Assembly (NCBI GenBank): GCA_018241325.1
Contig: JAFEEB010000046.1
Span: 1 to 43,852, forward strand
Reading direction: 5' to 3'
DNA length: 43,852 bases
Source of the DNA: Pseudomonadota bacterium
GTDB lineage: Bacteria > Pseudomonadota > Gammaproteobacteria > Burkholderiales > Burkholderiaceae_C
The position numbers were made by a program, and so were the translations under genes. Below are positions 735-43,852 of the stretch, one piece after another. The notes beneath the pieces are model-generated. The model was not told where the DNA came from and did no database searches. It saw nothing but the letters and a program-made list of their open reading frames with translations. Position 1 is the first letter of the stretch. The number at the start of each line of letters is the position of its first letter.

Positions 735-786
735 GGGGCCCCCTTGGGGGGCAGCGCAGCATGCGCAGCAGCGGAGCGTGGGGGCC
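735..786. repeat. Palindromic intergenic repeat between pilT and pilU
   Basis: A GC-rich imperfect palindrome with outer arms ggccccc and gggggcc and an inner segment rich in gcagcgc/gcgcagcagcg sits just after the pilT stop. Its CCCCC-TTGGGGGGC core matches a type of dispersed intergenic element that I recall from Comamonadaceae. On the minus strand it could form a strong hairpin and attenuate transcription from pilT into pilU. There is no U-tract, so an intrinsic terminator is not claimed. Confidence 0.55.
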
Positions 787-5732: not shown

Positions 5733-6842
5733 ATGGCGGGGACGAATCACGGGGACGCTGGACACTGGCCGCGCGCGGGCCTGACGCTGGTGCTGGCCGC
5801 TGGAGCCGCATTGCTGGCCGCGCGCGCACGCGTGCCGGTGCCGTGGATGATCGGCCCGCTGCTGGTCACGGCGGCGGCCCGCATGGCCGGCTGGCAGGCC
5901 GTCAGCAGCACCGGGCTGCGCAACGCCGGGCAATGGGTCATCGGCGGGGCGCTGGGCCTCTATTTCACGCCACAGGTGACGGCGCTGGTGCTGGGCCTGT
6001 GGTGGGCGGTGGCGTTGGCGGTCCTGTTTGCGCTGGGCTTGGGCGTGCTGTTCGGTGGCTGGATGAACCGCGCGCTGGGCACGGCCGGGGCCGAGCTGAC
6101 GCCCCTGCAGCGGCGCGCCACGGCCTGGTTTGCCAGCTCGGTCGGCGGCGCGTCGGAGATGACGCTGCTGGCTGAGCGCGCCGGTGCCCGCGCCGACCTG
6201 GTGGCGGCCGCACACAGCGTGCGCATGACGGTGGTGGTGCTGGTGCTGCCCTTTGCCATGCAGTGGGCGCGCCTGCACTGGCAGCTGCCGGCGTTGGACG
6301 CCACGCCGCCCGGGCGTGCCGCCGCCGAATGGCCGGGCCTGCTGTGGCTGGGCCTGGCCACCGGGGCGGGCGCCTGGCTGATGAGCCGCACGCGCCGCGC
6401 CAACCCCTGGTTCATTGGCCCGCTGCTGGTGGCCATGGCGTTGACCATGGCCGATGTCCATCTGTCGGCCGTGCCCAAGGCGCTGACCAATGCGGCCCAG
6501 CTGGTGATCGGCGTCAGCTTGGGCGTGCGCTTTTCGCGCCCGTTCCTGCGCACCGCGCCGCGCTGGCTGGCGGCTGCGGCCGTTGGCACGTTGGGCATGA
6601 TCGCGCTGTGCGCGGGTTTTGCCGAGCTGCTGGCGGGACTGACCGGGCTGCATCCGGTGACGTTGATGCTGGCCACGGCACCCGGCGGCATCGCCGAGAT
6701 GGCGATCACGGCGCAGGTGTTGCAACTGGGCGTGGCGGTGGTGACCGCCTTTCAGGTGTGCCGGCTGGTGGCCGTGCTGCTGCTGGCCGAACCCCTGTTT
6801 GGCTGGCTGGAGCGCCGCCGCTGGCGGCGCGCCGCGCCGTGA
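5733..6842 (+). CDS. AbrB-family integral membrane protein
   Basis: A 369-residue, highly hydrophobic protein with about ten membrane segments. It shows an internal duplication: VPVPWMIGPLLVTAAARMAGW in the first half (begins near 26) and RANPWFIGPLLVAMAL in the second (near 223). Each is followed by a G-Q-VIG-LG motif (NAGQWVIGGALGLYF; NAAQLVIGVSLGVRF). This twofold repeat defines the AbrB/putative ammonia monooxygenase family (TIGR03082 type), whose transport or regulatory role is unsettled; the name does not mean the DNA-binding AbrB. It is divergent from the ChaN-like gene with only 19 bases between starts. Confidence 0.87.
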   Translation: MAGTNHGDAGHWPRAGLTLVLAAGAALLAARARVPVPWMIGPLLVTAAARMAGWQAVSSTGLRNAGQWVIGGALGLYFTPQVTALVLGLWWAVALAVLFALGLGVLFGGWMNRALGTAGAELTPLQRRATAWFASSVGGASEMTLLAERAGARADLVAAAHSVRMTVVVLVLPFAMQWARLHWQLPALDATPPGRAAAEWPGLLWLGLATGAGAWLMSRTRRANPWFIGPLLVAMALTMADVHLSAVPKALTNAAQLVIGVSLGVRFSRPFLRTAPRWLAAAAVGTLGMIALCAGFAELLAGLTGLHPVTLMLATAPGGIAEMAITAQVLQLGVAVVTAFQVCRLVAVLLLAEPLFGWLERRRWRRAAP

Positions 6843-38758: not shown

Positions 38759-41700
38759 TCAGCGCGCCAGCACCGGTGCCAGCGCCACGCCGGTGTGCGT
38801 GCCCGCGCGCACCACGTCCTGCGGCGTGCCGGCGGCGACGATGCGCCCGCCGCCGGCGCCGCCTTCGGGGCCCAGGTCGATGATCCAGTCGGCCTCGGCG
38901 ATCAGGTCCAGATCGTGCTCGATCACCAGCACGCTGTGGCCGCCATCGACCAGGCGGTGCAGCACGCGGATGAGCCTTTCAACGTCCTGCATGTGCAGGC
39001 CGACGGTGGGCTCGTCCAGCACATACAGCGTGTGCGGGGCCTTCTGGCCACGGCGGGTTACGTCGTCGCGGACTTTTGACAGTTCGGTCACCAGTTTGAT
39101 GCGCTGCGCTTCACCGCCGGATAGCGTGGGCGAGGGCTGGCCCAGGGTGAGGTAGCCCAGGCCCACGTCCTGCAGCAGCTGCAGCGGGTGCGCGATGGCC
39201 GGCATGCTGGCGAAGAAGCCCACGGCCTCGTCCACCTCCATGCGCAGCACGTCGCCGATGCTCTTGCCGCGCCAGGTGACGGCCAGGGTCTCGGGGTTGA
39301 AGCGCGCGCCGTGGCAGGCCTCGCAGGGCACCTTGACGTCGGGCAGAAAGCTCATGGCGATGGTGCGCATGCCCTGGCCTTCGCAGCTGGTGCAGCGGCC
39401 GGCGCCGGTGTTGAAGCTGAAGCGCCCGGGCAGGTAGCCGCGCGCCTTGGCCTCCAGCGTTTCGGCAAACAGCTTGCGGATGGCGTCCCAGAAGCCGATG
39501 TAGGTGGCGGGGCAGGAGCGCGGGGTTTTGCCGATGGGCGTCTGGTCGACTTCGAGCACGCGGTCGATGCCCTCGAAGCCGCGCAGGCCGGTGCAGCCCA
39601 CCAGCGGTGGCGCCTTGCCCGCGTCCATGGCAGCGCGCCCGGCCTGGGTGCTGCGCTGGCCGACCCAGGCGGCCACGTTGGCCAGCAGCACGTCGCGCGC
39701 CAGCGTGGACTTGCCCGAGCCTGAGACTCCGGTGATGGCGACCAGGCGGCCCAGGGGGACGCGGACGTCGACGTCTTGCAGGTTGTGCAGCTTGGCGCCC
39801 GTGAGCGTGAGCCATCGGGTTACTCCCTCTCCCTCTGGGAGAGGGTTGGGGTGAGGGCCGACGGCCTGTCTAGCGGCAGCGGTCTTTTTCAAGCCCTTCT
39901 TGACCCTGGCGCTTGCTGATATTGCGGTGGGCGCTATCAAATCAGAAGTATTGATGCCTGTTGTTGCTGGCTGCGCGGTGCTTGTGGCCTGCGCCGCGCC
40001 CCCACCCCCGCCCTCCCCCAAAGGGGGAGGGGGCAAGACCGCACGACGTGCTTGCAACGGGTGGCGCATGGCATGCAGCAGATAGCGCCCGGTGGCCGAG
40101 TCGGGCGCGGCCTGCACGTCGGCCACGCTGCCCTCGGCCACCAGCCGCCCGCCACGCAGGCCGGCGCCGGGGCCGATGTCGATCAGGTGCTGGGCGGCGC
40201 GGATGGTGTCCACGTCGTGCTCGACCACGACCAGGGTGTTGCCCTTGTCGCTCAGATCCTTCAGCGCGTGCAGCAGGATGCGGTTGTCGCGCGGATGCAG
40301 GCCGATGGTGGGCTCGTCCAGCACGTAGCACACGCCTTGCAGGTTGCTGCCCAGCTGCGCCGCCAGGCGGATGCGCTGCGCCTCGCCGCCGCTGAGCGTG
40401 GGCGCGCCGCGGTCGAGGGTGAGGTAGCCCAGGCCGACTTGTTCGAGGAACTGCAGGCGACCCTGGATTTCGGGCAGCAGGTCGCGCGCGATGTCGGCGC
40501 TGCGGCCGGCGAGCTGCAAGGTGTTGAACCACTGGTGCAAGTCCTTGACGGACAGGCGGGCCAATGCGGTGATGGAGACGCCGCTGCCCTCACCCCAACC
40601 CTCTCCCGCAAGCGGGAGAGGGGGCAAGAGCGCCCCTTGGTTTTGCTCCCTCTCCCCCGCGGGGAGAGGGTGGGGGTGAGGGTGCTCCCTCCCCCTTTGG
40701 GGGAGGGTTGGGGTGGGGGCCAGCGGCGTGTCCATGGTGACCGCCGCTGGCCCCCCTCCGAGCCTCGGTGCGGGCAGCGAGACGCCGCCGCCCTTCAGGC
40801 CGTCCCCTTGCACACTGGCGAAAGCGGAGCCGCGGCCTTCAGCCCCAAAGGGGGGAGGAGCAAAGTCCAGCAGCACCGCGCGCGCGATCGCGTTCAGCCG
40901 TGTGCCCTGGCACGTCGGGCAGGGTTGGTCGGCCAGGTCCTCCACCTCGGGCTCGGCAAAGCTCTGCTCGCGGCCCTTCTCGTCGGCGGCCAGCACCGAG
41001 TCGTCCAGCGCCTTGCGCTGCTCGCGCGTCAGCTTGACGCCGGTGCCCACGCAGTCGGGGCACCAGCCGTGCTTGCTGTTGTAGGAAAACAGGCGCGGGT
41101 CCAGCTCGGCGTAGCTGGTGGCGCACACCGGGCAGGCGCGCTTGGTCGAGAACACCTCGACGCGGCCGATGCGCGCCGTCGATGCGCCCGTTTCCATCGC
41201 GTTGCGCAGGCCGGCGATGTCGTGCAGCACGTGCACCACGCCCTTGCCGTGCTCCAGCGCGCGCGCCAAGGATTCGCGCAGCTGCGCCTCGTTGCCGGGG
41301 GTGACGGGCAGGCTCATCACCGGCAGCTCGATGGTGTGCTCCTTGAAGCGGTCGATGCGCGGAAAGCCGGTGGTGGGCAAGAACTCGCCATCGACCCGCA
41401 GGTGCGTGAAGCCGCGCGGGCGCGCCCAGTCGGCCAGCTCGGTATAGACGCCCTTGCGCGCGACGACCAGCGGCGCCAGCAGCCCAATGGTCTGGCCGCG
41501 ATAGCGCGTGAGGATTTGGGCGGCGATGCGCTCGGGCGTCTGCGGCTGCACAGCGGCGCCGTCGTGCACGCAGTGCTGCACGCCCAGCTTGACGAAAGCC
41601 AAGCGCAGAAAGTGCCACACCTCGGTGGTGGTGCCCACGGTGCTCTTGCGCCCGCCGCGCGACAGGCGCTGCTCGATCGCCACCGTGGGCGGAATGCCAT

Positions 41701-43852
41701 ACACCGCATCCACGTCGGGGCGCCCCGCCGGCTGCACGATGGAGCGCGCGTAGGCGTTGAGCGACTCCAGGTAGCGCCGCTGCCCCTCGTTGAACAGGAT
41801 GTCGAAAGCCAGCGTGGACTTGCCCGAGCCCGACACGCCCGTGACCACGCTGAATTGGCCGCGCGGCACCTGCACGCTGAGGTTCTTCAGGTTGTGTTCG
41901 CGCGCCCGCAGGATCTGGATGGCGCCTTCCCCCTGGCTTGCTCCCTCTCCCTCTGGGAGAGGGTTGGGGTGAGGGCCGGCGGCGGTCGATGGGGATACGC
42001 CGCTGGCCCCCACCCCTGCCCTCCCCCAAGGGGGGAGGGTTTCAGCGGCCTTCAGCACGCCGTGGCTCAGTGCCGCCTCGTAATCCCGCAGCGCCGCCCC
42101 CGTGTGCGACGTGGGGTGCTGCGCCACATCCGCCGGCGTGCCCTGCGCCACGATGCGCCCGCCCGCGTCGCCGCCCTCCGGCCCCAGGTCGATCAGCCAG
42201 TCGGAGGCAGCGATGACGTCCAGGTTGTGCTCGATCACGATCAGCGAGTGACCCGCGTCCAGCAGCTTCCTCAGCGCGCGCATCAGCTTGGCGATGTCGT
42301 CGAAGTGCAGGCCGGTGGTCGGCTCGTCGAACAAAAACAGCTGGCCCTTGCGCGCCATGGCCTGGCGGCTGGCACTTTGATTGCGCGCTGCCTCGGCCAA
42401 GTGCCCGGCCAGCTTCAGCCGCTGCGCCTCGCCGCCGCTCAGCGTGGGCACCGGCTGGCCCAGGCGCACATAGTCCAGCCCCACGTCCACGATGGGCTGC
42501 AGCGCACGCACCACGTCGCGGTCGCGCGCGAAGACCTGCACCGCCTCGGCCACGGTCAGCTCCAGCACGTCGGCCACGTTGAGCAAGCGCGCCCGAAAAT
42601 TGGGGTCAGATGACAATTTCTGGCTGCTGCCCAAGGCGGCCAGCGCGTCGGCGGCTTGCTGCAAATCGTGATTTGACGCCGATTTTCGGTCGATGCGCAC
42701 CTCCAGAATTTCGGGGCGATAGCGCTGGCCGTTGCAGTCGGGGCAGCGCAGGTACACGTCGCTCAAGAACTGCATCTCCACGTGCTCGAAGCCCGAGCCG
42801 CCGCAGGTGGGGCAGCGCCCGTCGCCCGAGTTGAAGCTGAACTTGGCGGCGGTGTAGCCGCGCTGGCGGGCCAGCGGCGCGTCGGCGAACAGCTTGCGAA
42901 TGGCGTCCCAGGCGCCGACGTAGCTGGCGGGGTTGGAGCGCGCGGTCTTGCCGATGGGCGACTGATCGACGAACACCACGCCACTCAATTGCTCGGCGCC
43001 CAAGAGGCGCTCATGCGCGCCGGGTGACTCAGTGGCCTGGCCGAAGTGGCGCATCAGCGCGGGCGCCAGCACGTCCTGGATCAGCGTGGACTTGCCCGAG
43101 CCCGACACACCCGTCACGGTGACCAGGCGCTGCAAAGGAAAGGCGACGTCAATGCCCTTGAGGTTGTGCTCGCGCACGCCTTCCAGGATCAGGCGCGGCG
43201 TGTTGTCCTGTACCAGGCGGCTGAAGCCCAGGCCGATGGACTTGCGCCCGCCCAGATAGGCGCCCGTCAGCGTGTCGGCGCCGCGCAGGGCGTCGGGCGT
43301 GCCGTCGAAGACGATGCGGCCCCCCGCCGCGCCGGGGCCGGGGCCGAAGTCGAGCACGCGGTCGGCGGCCAGCATGACGGCCGGGTCGTGCTCGACCACC
43401 ACCAGCGTGTTGCCGGCGTTTTTCAGGCGCTGCATGGCCTGGGTGATGCGATCCATGTCGCGCGGGTGCAGGCCGATGCTGGGCTCGTCCAGCACGAACA
43501 GGGTGTTGACGAGGGACGTGCCCAGCGCGGTGGTGAGGTTGATGCGCTGCACTTCGCCGCCGCTGAGCGTGCGGCTTTGGCGGTCGAGCGTGAGGTAGCC
43601 GATGCCGACGTCGCAGAGGTATTTCAGGCGGGTCTGGATTTCGTCCAGGATCAGCTTGCGGGCCATCGCATCCGCGCCGTGGGTGTTGGGGCGGTGGCCC
43701 TCACCCCGGCCCTCTCCCGCAAGCGGGAGAGGGAGAAAGTCGTCCCCGGCTGTTGCTCCCTCGCCCCTCTGGGGAGAGGGCTGGGGTGAGGGGCCGGCGG
43801 CGTCTGCAGGAGGCGCTGCCGGCCCCCACCCCAACCCTCCCCCAGAGGGGGA
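38759..43852 (-). CDS. uvrA: Tandem (double) UvrA excinuclease subunit, 5' end outside window
   Basis: UvrA is the damage-recognition ATPase of nucleotide excision repair. Nearly 1,700 residues are visible in one open frame running off the right edge; a normal UvrA has about 950. Four ABC modules appear: the end of one (LSGGEVQRINL, VLDEPSIGLH), then three full ones, each with GVSGSGKST, LSGGEAQR and DEPT-GLH. The second copy starts anew at LRAREHNLKNLSVQVPRGQF. So two complete UvrA units are fused, a form known in Burkholderiales. Zinc sites are seen, e.g. CPTCGGSGFE/CPDCNG and CTSCEGQG/CEACHG. At least four low-complexity inserts (HPNPLPEGEG, PLPLAGEGWGEG, PQPSPQRGEG types) are translated palindromic repeats. 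The frame stays open, so the gene looks functional. Confidence 0.93.
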   Translation of the reverse strand, partial: SPSGGGLGWGPAAPPADAAGPSPQPSPQRGEGATAGDDFLPLPLAGEGRGEGHRPNTHGADAMARKLILDEIQTRLKYLCDVGIGYLTLDRQSRTLSGGEVQRINLTTALGTSLVNTLFVLDEPSIGLHPRDMDRITQAMQRLKNAGNTLVVVEHDPAVMLAADRVLDFGPGPGAAGGRIVFDGTPDALRGADTLTGAYLGGRKSIGLGFSRLVQDNTPRLILEGVREHNLKGIDVAFPLQRLVTVTGVSGSGKSTLIQDVLAPALMRHFGQATESPGAHERLLGAEQLSGVVFVDQSPIGKTARSNPASYVGAWDAIRKLFADAPLARQRGYTAAKFSFNSGDGRCPTCGGSGFEHVEMQFLSDVYLRCPDCNGQRYRPEILEVRIDRKSASNHDLQQAADALAALGSSQKLSSDPNFRARLLNVADVLELTVAEAVQVFARDRDVVRALQPIVDVGLDYVRLGQPVPTLSGGEAQRLKLAGHLAEAARNQSASRQAMARKGQLFLFDEPTTGLHFDDIAKLMRALRKLLDAGHSLIVIEHNLDVIAASDWLIDLGPEGGDAGGRIVAQGTPADVAQHPTSHTGAALRDYEAALSHGVLKAAETLPPWGRAGVGASGVSPSTAAGPHPNPLPEGEGASQGEGAIQILRAREHNLKNLSVQVPRGQFSVVTGVSGSGKSTLAFDILFNEGQRRYLESLNAYARSIVQPAGRPDVDAVYGIPPTVAIEQRLSRGGRKSTVGTTTEVWHFLRLAFVKLGVQHCVHDGAAVQPQTPERIAAQILTRYRGQTIGLLAPLVVARKGVYTELADWARPRGFTHLRVDGEFLPTTGFPRIDRFKEHTIELPVMSLPVTPGNEAQLRESLARALEHGKGVVHVLHDIAGLRNAMETGASTARIGRVEVFSTKRACPVCATSYAELDPRLFSYNSKHGWCPDCVGTGVKLTREQRKALDDSVLAADEKGREQSFAEPEVEDLADQPCPTCQGTRLNAIARAVLLDFAPPPFGAEGRGSAFASVQGDGLKGGGVSLPAPRLGGGPAAVTMDTPLAPTPTLPQRGREHPHPHPLPAGEREQNQGALLPPLPLAGEGWGEGSGVSITALARLSVKDLHQWFNTLQLAGRSADIARDLLPEIQGRLQFLEQVGLGYLTLDRGAPTLSGGEAQRIRLAAQLGSNLQGVCYVLDEPTIGLHPRDNRILLHALKDLSDKGNTLVVVEHDVDTIRAAQHLIDIGPGAGLRGGRLVAEGSVADVQAAPDSATGRYLLHAMRHPLQARRAVLPPPPLGEGGGGGAAQATSTAQPATTGINTSDLIAPTAISASARVKKGLKKTAAARQAVGPHPNPLPEGEGVTRWLTLTGAKLHNLQDVDVRVPLGRLVAITGVSGSGKSTLARDVLLANVAAWVGQRSTQAGRAAMDAGKAPPLVGCTGLRGFEGIDRVLEVDQTPIGKTPRSCPATYIGFWDAIRKLFAETLEAKARGYLPGRFSFNTGAGRCTSCEGQGMRTIAMSFLPDVKVPCEACHGARFNPETLAVTWRGKSIGDVLRMEVDEAVGFFASMPAIAHPLQLLQDVGLGYLTLGQPSPTLSGGEAQRIKLVTELSKVRDDVTRRGQKAPHTLYVLDEPTVGLHMQDVERLIRVLHRLVDGGHSVLVIEHDLDLIAEADWIIDLGPEGGAGGGRIVAAGTPQDVVRAGTHTGVALAPVLAR
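39822..40036. repeat. Composite repeat insertion in uvrA, second copy, between ABC modules
   Basis: Two GC-rich palindromic units (ccctctccctctgggagagg at one end; ccctcccccaaagggggagg at the other) flank an ATAGCTGC-type piece, GGGCGCTATCAAATCAGAAG with GCGCTTGCTGATATT (about 39908-39955). Together they encode some 80 residues with GPHPNPLPEGEG and GINTSDLIAPTAISAS, ahead of LTLTGAKLHNLQDVDV. Confidence 0.75.
40578..40862. repeat. Composite repeat insertion in uvrA, second copy, inside ABC module 1
   Basis: Several copies of the ccctcnccc/gggnnaggg palindrome in tandem and opposite orientations (for example CCCTCTCCCGCAAGCGGGAG, CCCTCTCCCCCGCGGGGAGA, CTCCCCCTTTGGGGGAGG). They encode about 95 extra residues (PTPTLPQRGREHPHPHPLPA, PPLPLAGEGWGEG) between LNAIARAVLLDFA and ITALARLSVKDLHQWF, where other UvrA have only a few residues. 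Confidence 0.8.
41937..42043. repeat. Palindromic repeat insertion at the junction of the two UvrA copies
   Basis: CTCCCTCTCCCTCTGGGAGA and CCCTCCCCCAAGGGGGGAGG with ggttggggtgagggcc between. They encode LPPWGRAGVGASGVSPSTAA and GPHPNPLPEGEG, forming most of the linker between ALRDYEAALS and ILRAREHNLK. Confidence 0.75.
42597..42688. repeat. Probable ATAGCTGC-type repeat in uvrA copy 1
   Basis: ATGACAATTTCTGGCTGCTG, then GGCCAGCGCGTCGGCGGCTT and CAAATCGTGATTTGACG have the repeat's AT edges and GCTGC/AGCGC cores but are diverged. They encode KSASNHDLQQAADALAALGS and SQKLSSDPNFRARLL, absent at the matching place in the second copy (VTWRGKSIGDVLRMEV). Confidence 0.45.
43698..43852. repeat. Palindromic repeat insertion in uvrA copy 1, reaching the window edge
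   Basis: Three units: CCCTCTCCCGCAAGCGGGAG, CCCTCGCCCCTCTGGGGAGA and CCCTCCCCCAGAGGGGGA, joined by ggggtgagg-type arms. They encode GPSPQPSPQRGEG and LPLPLAGEGRGEGHRPN just before MARKLILDEIQTRLKYL, i.e. inside the first ABC module ahead of its signature motif. Confidence 0.75.

Follow-up and report, generated by a model that had tools for sequence, protein, structure and literature searches.

How a gene for a DNA repair protein comes to be read without a stop through repeated blocks of palindromic DNA is the question raised by the end of the window, i.e. the whole stretch of 43,852 bases analyzed here, which covers bases 1-43852 of a 50.6-kb contig. The answer favored here is that the blocks are most probably copies of the BoxC/PIT element that have multiplied in this Comamonadaceae-type genome, in genes as well as between them. 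The family placement is drawn from same-genus genomes whose tandem gene is identical to that of named contigs, e.g. L066/L146 of a Comamonadaceae bacterium.

The tandem uvrA gene and its palindromic blocks

On the minus strand a single open reading frame of 1,697 codons with no stops runs from 43852 to 38759 and encodes most of a double UvrA with its two copies head to tail, to which NCBIfam UvrA models match as five stretches and which also matches PDB sequences. Two UvrA copies should contain each of the Walker A and ABC signature motifs four times, and four GSGKS and four LSGGE were found in the translations, with one GSGKS past the window end. The NCBIfam equivalog NF001885 (1,809 positions) likewise describes UvrA copies head to tail, and the window part of the protein scores 952 bits against its cut-off of 3054. 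The gene extends to about 45280 on the contig, across a run of 14 Ns (contig 43853-43866) that follows the window's last base directly and lies within a palindromic element, and in the contig translation the N-terminal part beyond this gap is in a different frame. In G005, the nearest relative, about 22 residues occupy the gap position, for which 14 bases do not suffice; the N run is therefore too short a placeholder that neither proves nor disproves a frame break, and the full-length frame cannot be judged from it. The first-pass annotation described the gene as having no frame break; with the window stopping at the gap and another frame beyond, this holds inside the window, and some relatives are in fact broken at their inserts. 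It also called the repair gene essential, which does not follow for the tandem gene because a second, canonical uvrA is present on a separate contig of the same genome (G000:C88). Among the matches listed, a tandem gene match of at least 67% identity occurs in 28 of 29 same-genus genomes, and G015 (76% complete) has canonical-level uvrA matches only. The gene is split across two contig ends in G005, and in G025, a single-contig genome, it is an intact frame of 2,096 codons containing BoxC blocks.

Four palindromic blocks with 10 units, each block roughly 40 to 100 residues long, lie in frame within the tandem gene (Table 1), between and inside modules as first described, and the peptides named at that time (e.g. 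HPNPLPEGEG and PQPSPQRGEG) do recur in various frames and both orientations. Searching with a profile built from 36 distinct copies of the own genome placed all units between 39807 and 43852, with none in the other 38 kb of the window, and Rfam gave no match anywhere in the window at the gathering threshold. When folded with Watson-Crick pairs only, three of the four blocks beat 200 of 200 shuffles and the fourth was equalled by 3 of 200. The inter-copy pair folds as three stems (z -5.96), and G005 has a different sequence at that site. The three-unit block (fold z -5.85, pLDDT about 25-28) passes into degenerate repeat DNA that continues to about 40860, giving an insert of 89 residues, and the last unit of the end block, truncated by the window end, is weak at 14 bits. 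A 21-base signature of the unit has 87 exact copies in the genome and its reversed-pattern control has none, which rules out chance GC-richness as the source of the repeats; with up to 3 mismatches the contrast falls to 162 vs 98. Other palindromes also occur in this gene. The short AAATTGGGGTCAGA type has 3 exact copies genome-wide, and a second family, TTCGCTGCCCCCCGAGGGGGC (which reads SGGSEPRAAGSVG), is read in frame within the N-terminal half of the tandem gene (L003 ~6628-6720, contig 44627-44719), is also found at window 738-758, and occurs at 46 places in the genome at no more than 2 mismatches, with a reversed control of 0.

Table 1. Features of the tandem uvrA region in window coordinates.
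Feature	Position	Strand	Basis or remark
Tandem UvrA, C-terminal ~3/4	38759..43852	minus	ORF, contig translation, NCBIfam, PDB sequence matches
Linker block between ABC halves of second UvrA copy, after core position 1563	39807..40049		profile units
BoxC type I unit of linker block	39807-39867	minus
Type II unit of linker block	39989-40049	plus
Block of three BoxC units, loop of second UvrA copy	40577..40764		profile units, fold, pLDDT
Unit of three-unit block	40577-40639	plus
Unit of three-unit block	40630-40685	minus
Unit of three-unit block	40681-40729	minus
Inter-copy linker block, inverted pair	41925..42049		profile units, fold
BoxC type I unit of inter-copy linker	41925-41985	minus
Type II unit of inter-copy linker	41997-42049	plus
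Separate short palindrome, AAATTGGGGTCAGA type	42595..42625		in frame, core-817 loop
BoxC block truncated by window end	43688..43852		profile units; gap at contig 43853-43866
Unit of end block	43688-43751	plus
Unit of end block	43741-43802	minus
Unit of end block	43813-43852	plus

Judged by sequence layout, the window palindromes are the BoxC/PIT/TM(ECO) intrastrand-triplex motif and not a GTAG/CGTC REP. The unit is about 45 bases long, often occurs as inverted pairs, and is laid out as CCCTCACCCC-NN-CCCTCTCCC-loop-GGGAGAGGG-AGCAA; its reverse strand, CCCTCTCCC-loop-GGGAGAGGG-TT-GGGGTGAGGG, equals the BoxC/PIT/TM motif as described in PMC4666352. The pattern CCCTC[TG]CCC-loop-GGGNGAGGG, NN, GGGGTGAGGG is present exactly at window 39825-39857 and 41943-41975, and the positional consensus of the 87 copies likewise fits when Table 1 of PMC4666352 is taken as reference. 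BoxC/TMECO of E. coli shares the arrangement of pyrimidine arm, short loop, purine arm and second purine tract (GGGGTGAGGG), is about equal in length, and also forms inverted pairs. As expected of a dispersed family, a 43-base window copy matches 5,350 of 5,426 E. coli genomes at a median of 16 places. The GTAG/CGTC tetranucleotide is absent from the stem end in the consensus of the 87 copies. A type II variant (CCCTCCCCC ... GGGGTGGGGG), which lacks TGA, is found in every block of the tandem gene. BoxC/PIT is reported to form an intrastrand triplex in vitro (PMC4666352, Holder et al. 2015), which makes the window units putative triplex formers. The same source describes every copy in E. coli MG1655 as intergenic, whereas about one third of the clusters examined here are genic and in frame; we take intergenic location to be a property of the host and not a sequence criterion.

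Genome-wide spread and lineage-specific insertion

Exact signature copies range from 0 to 119 across the 29 same-genus genomes, in which the reversed-pattern control again gives 0. From stretches taken around exact signature sites and some one-mismatch sites, excluding clusters less than 250 bases from the end of a stretch, 82 clusters of the own genome were classed by the coding signal on both flanks under a codon-usage model built for this analysis. There were 26 in frame without a stop, which may include a few gene ends, and 5 in the same phase with a stop, the rest comprising 19 on the same strand but shifted, 5 between opposite strands, 24 with one side coding and 3 noncoding. The model misses three tandem uvrA clusters, calling two "one side coding" and one, at the N gap, "phase-shift". 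Co-directional coding flanks share a phase in 46 of 75 cases vs one third expected (P 6e-7), and in two single-contig relatives 6/23 and 7/25 clusters are in frame, the classing in G027 having used 30 of 38 sites.

The 26 in-frame clusters fall in 23 distinct genes, so that such insertion reaches well beyond the tandem gene. By Pfam and NCBIfam, with names beyond the titles of those models assigned by us, hosts include both UvrA genes, MutS, a UvrD-type helicase, CobQ, PurL, a PbpC-type protein, Tex, RsgA, ThiD/ThiE, a ThiL-type protein (AIR synthase domains), a lipoyl-dihydrolipoamide dehydrogenase, HsdM, two MmeI and a SpoU methylase. Single Pfam domains may be spanned or split by an insert, e.g. 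MutS_III, UvrD_C, DegT, N6_Mtase and RsgA. In cobQ the cluster (G000:C44:111704-112217, L175) consists of 514 bases of repeated BoxC-derived peptide units in frame, which suggests local expansion following insertion. A unit in G027 (C1:1964329-1964392, L330) is in frame in a candidate NAD-dependent DNA ligase, as the gene reads from its flanking peptide, which would be a further repair gene. The own genome also has a second MutS-like gene (G000:C75:3317-5776), a frame of 954 codons with three matches 52-59% identical.

The tandem gene is a hotspot. In the six genomes with complete site positions it holds 15 of 302 exact copies vs 0.48 expected (6 in the own genome, 3 each in G001, G005 and G025, and 0 in G027 and G006). 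Among 81 near-complete tandem UvrA frames of at least 1,850 codons (65 named loci and 16 same-genus), 25 carry at least one unit and 56 carry none. Merged profile hits over these frames numbered 79 in the gene vs 5 in approximately equal flank, a count that is possibly too high, since similarity to the insert-bearing query determined the ranking of the named loci and since four genes were counted twice (L065/L151, L066/L146, L076/L145 and L120/L164); without L145 the in-gene hits drop to 74.

Comparison with relatives bears out the earlier suggestion that the palindromes insert, since they vary by lineage as inserted DNA would. Matches to mutS were found in 28 of 29 genomes, and the own insert (residues ~396-446) is missing in all 25 relatives with both flanking matches listed, in which the flanking matches abut with an overlap or a gap of at most about 36 bases (e.g. 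G005 50186/50181). No target-site duplication was readable at this insert, where the nucleotide alignments are gappy, the loop is variable and the boundaries are ragged. The unit in canonical uvrA is present in the own genome and G005 and in 0 of 19 other loci examined, two of them truncated by contig ends. In the tandem gene, insert loops lie at core positions ~144-244, 466-481, 814-818, 1004-1023, 1379, 1404-1407 and 1563-1584. A graded series comes from nine Variovorax tandem UvrA proteins, 90-99% identical, in which the 471-481 loop is empty (L134, L119, L127, L140), filled with a BoxC pair (L103, L070) or filled with a type II pair (L142, L072, L071). Outside the loop, the empty L134 and the filled L103 are 98.0% identical, and the differently filled L070 and L072 are 98.5% identical. 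Over the shared core, the tandem UvrA of G005 is 91% identical to our own. Across relatives, then, loops are empty, differently arranged or occupied by other sequence, with no conserved non-repeat insert, and a single ancient conserved insert is ruled out because relatives differ at the same loops. Breaks of the frame occur at inserts of G019 (core 1563) and G027 (core 1379), and G001 (89% complete, 6% contamination) is broken at several places, so that sparing the frame is no built-in property of the blocks.

The same loops hold other peptides in L118, L123, L141, L105, L106 and L135 (core 817) and in L116 (core 1009), the lineages being Hydrogenophaga, Pseudacidovorax, Limnohabitans, Rhodoferax and a Comamonadaceae MAG. 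Among these peptides are the putatively repeat-encoded SPVRAELVEA, RHSERSEEE, RFARDDGG and SLRGTKQS, and several unrelated repeat families may thus use permissive loops of one gene, the tandem uvrA. In Polaromonas sp. CG9_12 (L068) the insert at core 1379 has a (DT)n run beside BoxC units.

Frame use, constraint and competing explanations

Of the three frames on the reverse strand of the unit, two are open and the third contains TGA. Favored and other open frames were used 20 to 2 by reverse units in the own in-frame clusters (P 1e-4) and 23 to 1 in tandem uvrA (P 3e-6), counting one of each duplicate gene pair and with P values that ignore kinship of related genes; zero use of the stop-containing frame is by construction, as only open frames were counted. 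The favored frame gives PLPLAGEGRGEG, and a peptide rich in Arg and Val results from the rare one. In forward units all three frames are open, and the bias is weaker or mixed (7, 3 and 3 in the own clusters; 10, 11 and 1 in tandem uvrA). The reverse-frame bias speaks for translation and filtering of the segment and suggests selection at the level of the peptide.

The tandem uvrA core is under purifying selection. Compared with G005, dN/dS is 0.17 in the core and 0.64 in the shared insert (36 codons) of tandem uvrA, and 0.21 in the core and 0.39 in the shared insert (32 codons) of canonical uvrA; a third insert comparison was left out, being of 24 codons, saturated (dS 2.16) and not homologous. 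An AlphaFold model of the second UvrA copy matches UvrA structures with moderate confidence (mean pLDDT 67.6), and over most of residues 378-468 and 658-721, which correspond to two blocks, pLDDT is about 25-32, with mostly no secondary structure predicted. The first-pass view that the double UvrA tolerates large disordered loops agrees with this predicted disorder, and the inserts would form floppy loops that seem to be tolerated and not of use.

These patterns are consistent with a process in which BoxC insertion or local copying would be roughly blind to reading frame, selection on the host gene would purge readings that contain stops, shift the frame or are basic or hydrophobic, and the surviving product would be a disordered loop rich in Pro, Gly and Glu at a loop or domain linker. 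Tandem uvrA may collect most units because it offers several such loops and because a canonical uvrA is also in the cell. An alternative explanation, improbable to us, is that the inserts are functional and alter the activity of repair proteins, e.g. to produce mutators, so that repair genes are targeted. By raw count 4 of the 23 in-frame hosts are DNA repair genes (tandem uvrA, uvrA, mutS and the uvrD-type helicase), other palindrome classes in other lineages are also described in uvrA, uvrB, UvrD/REP helicase and ligase (PMC3733652), and a change of activity by intragenic GTAG/CGTC REPs in repair genes is offered there as speculation. This would not account for the majority of in-frame hosts, which are unrelated to repair, nor for inserts shared with G005 being less constrained than the core, and most of the relatives examined lack the inserts of mutS and canonical uvrA. 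Decidedly improbable is the idea that triplex palindromes accumulate in genes of the machinery for distorted DNA (uvrA twice, mutS and the uvrD-type gene) as a convergent, selected feedback. If it were true, element-bearing repair proteins would change the handling of the elements or the mutation rate, and the feedback would have arisen independently of the known REP cases, which involve another palindrome class and an unrelated lineage.

That the units are removed or skipped at the RNA or ribosome level, leaving a protein without them, is exceedingly improbable: the blocks do form strong hairpins on folding, but 43 of 46 reverse units lie in the favored open frame, which is unexpected if the segment is skipped, and ribosome skipping is rejected on this bias. 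An assembly artefact or pseudogene is very unlikely. One block does contain a scaffold gap, the G005 gene lies over two contig ends and some relatives are frame-broken at inserts, but the intact G025 frame with its BoxC blocks, the purifying selection on the core and the 25 unit-bearing frames of at least 1,850 codons all speak against it. As to how BoxC copies move, mobilization by a REP/RAYT-type transposase of the Y1 family is possible but unlikely. A Y1 open frame of at least 200 aa is present in 13 of 13 same-genus genomes with 14 or more copies and in 5 of 16 with 12 or fewer (6 of 16 counting one below the family cut-off), an association (P 0.0001-0.0004) that ignores relatedness and genome completeness and uses a dividing line set after the copy counts had been seen. 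Despite this correlation, linkage to a RAYT-type gene was not found: none of the 20 Y1 loci examined has an adjoining unit, one having a unit about 1.4 kb off, and the unit ends lack a GTAG or CGTC tag. No inverted repeats of 14 or more bases were found within 60 bases of the own Y1 gene. The flanking test is a weak one, as some RAYT genes are described without flanking REPs (PMC3733652). Contig C1 of the single-contig genome G027 has 20 Y1-transposase matches, many of which are short and score identically, the pattern that recent IS200-type copies should give.

Relation to known in-gene palindromes

Palindromes within uvrA are already known for other classes. Two sites of the Thioalkalivibrio uvrA and both uvrA genes of O. 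terrae are interrupted by GTAG/CGTC REPs (PMC3733652, Di Nocera et al. 2013), and, as here, these REPs are described as in-frame palindromes within genes, often dimers, and in many repair genes. They are a different palindrome class, our units having no GTAG/CGTC tag, and the present case adds a hotspot in tandem uvrA, biased use of reading frames, and close allele pairs of which one is empty and the other filled. The word boxC is absent from the main text of that paper; BoxC is listed in PMC2267715 with no class, genic or intergenic, assigned to it, along with a genic family read in different frames; and no earlier report of in-gene BoxC was found among the titles and abstract openings of the open-licence papers listed. 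The odd preference for repair genes such as uvrA and uvrD that was described for palindromes in 2013 recurs here with another element.

The likeness to Rickettsia palindromic elements drawn in the first-pass annotation is fair for behavior, as judged from published descriptions, while the units themselves match BoxC/PIT triplex motifs. Rickettsia elements are described as in-frame palindromic DNA in unrelated conserved genes (Ogata et al. 2000, 2002, via PMC10969869 and PMC3733652), and they and the Coxiella QMITE fusions are summarised in PMC10969869 and PMC5896051; in-frame insertion into conserved genes is likewise found here. As originally described, the Rickettsia elements measure about 150 bp and carry a conserved peptide, whereas the present units are about 45 bp and are read in several frames. 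The close Variovorax proteins, among which one loop is either empty or has one of two fillings, provide a testable system, and the frame bias points to selection on the peptide from sequence alone. In-gene palindromes would extend, on this evidence, from Rickettsia elements and REPs to BoxC, a very widespread element described as intergenic in E. coli.
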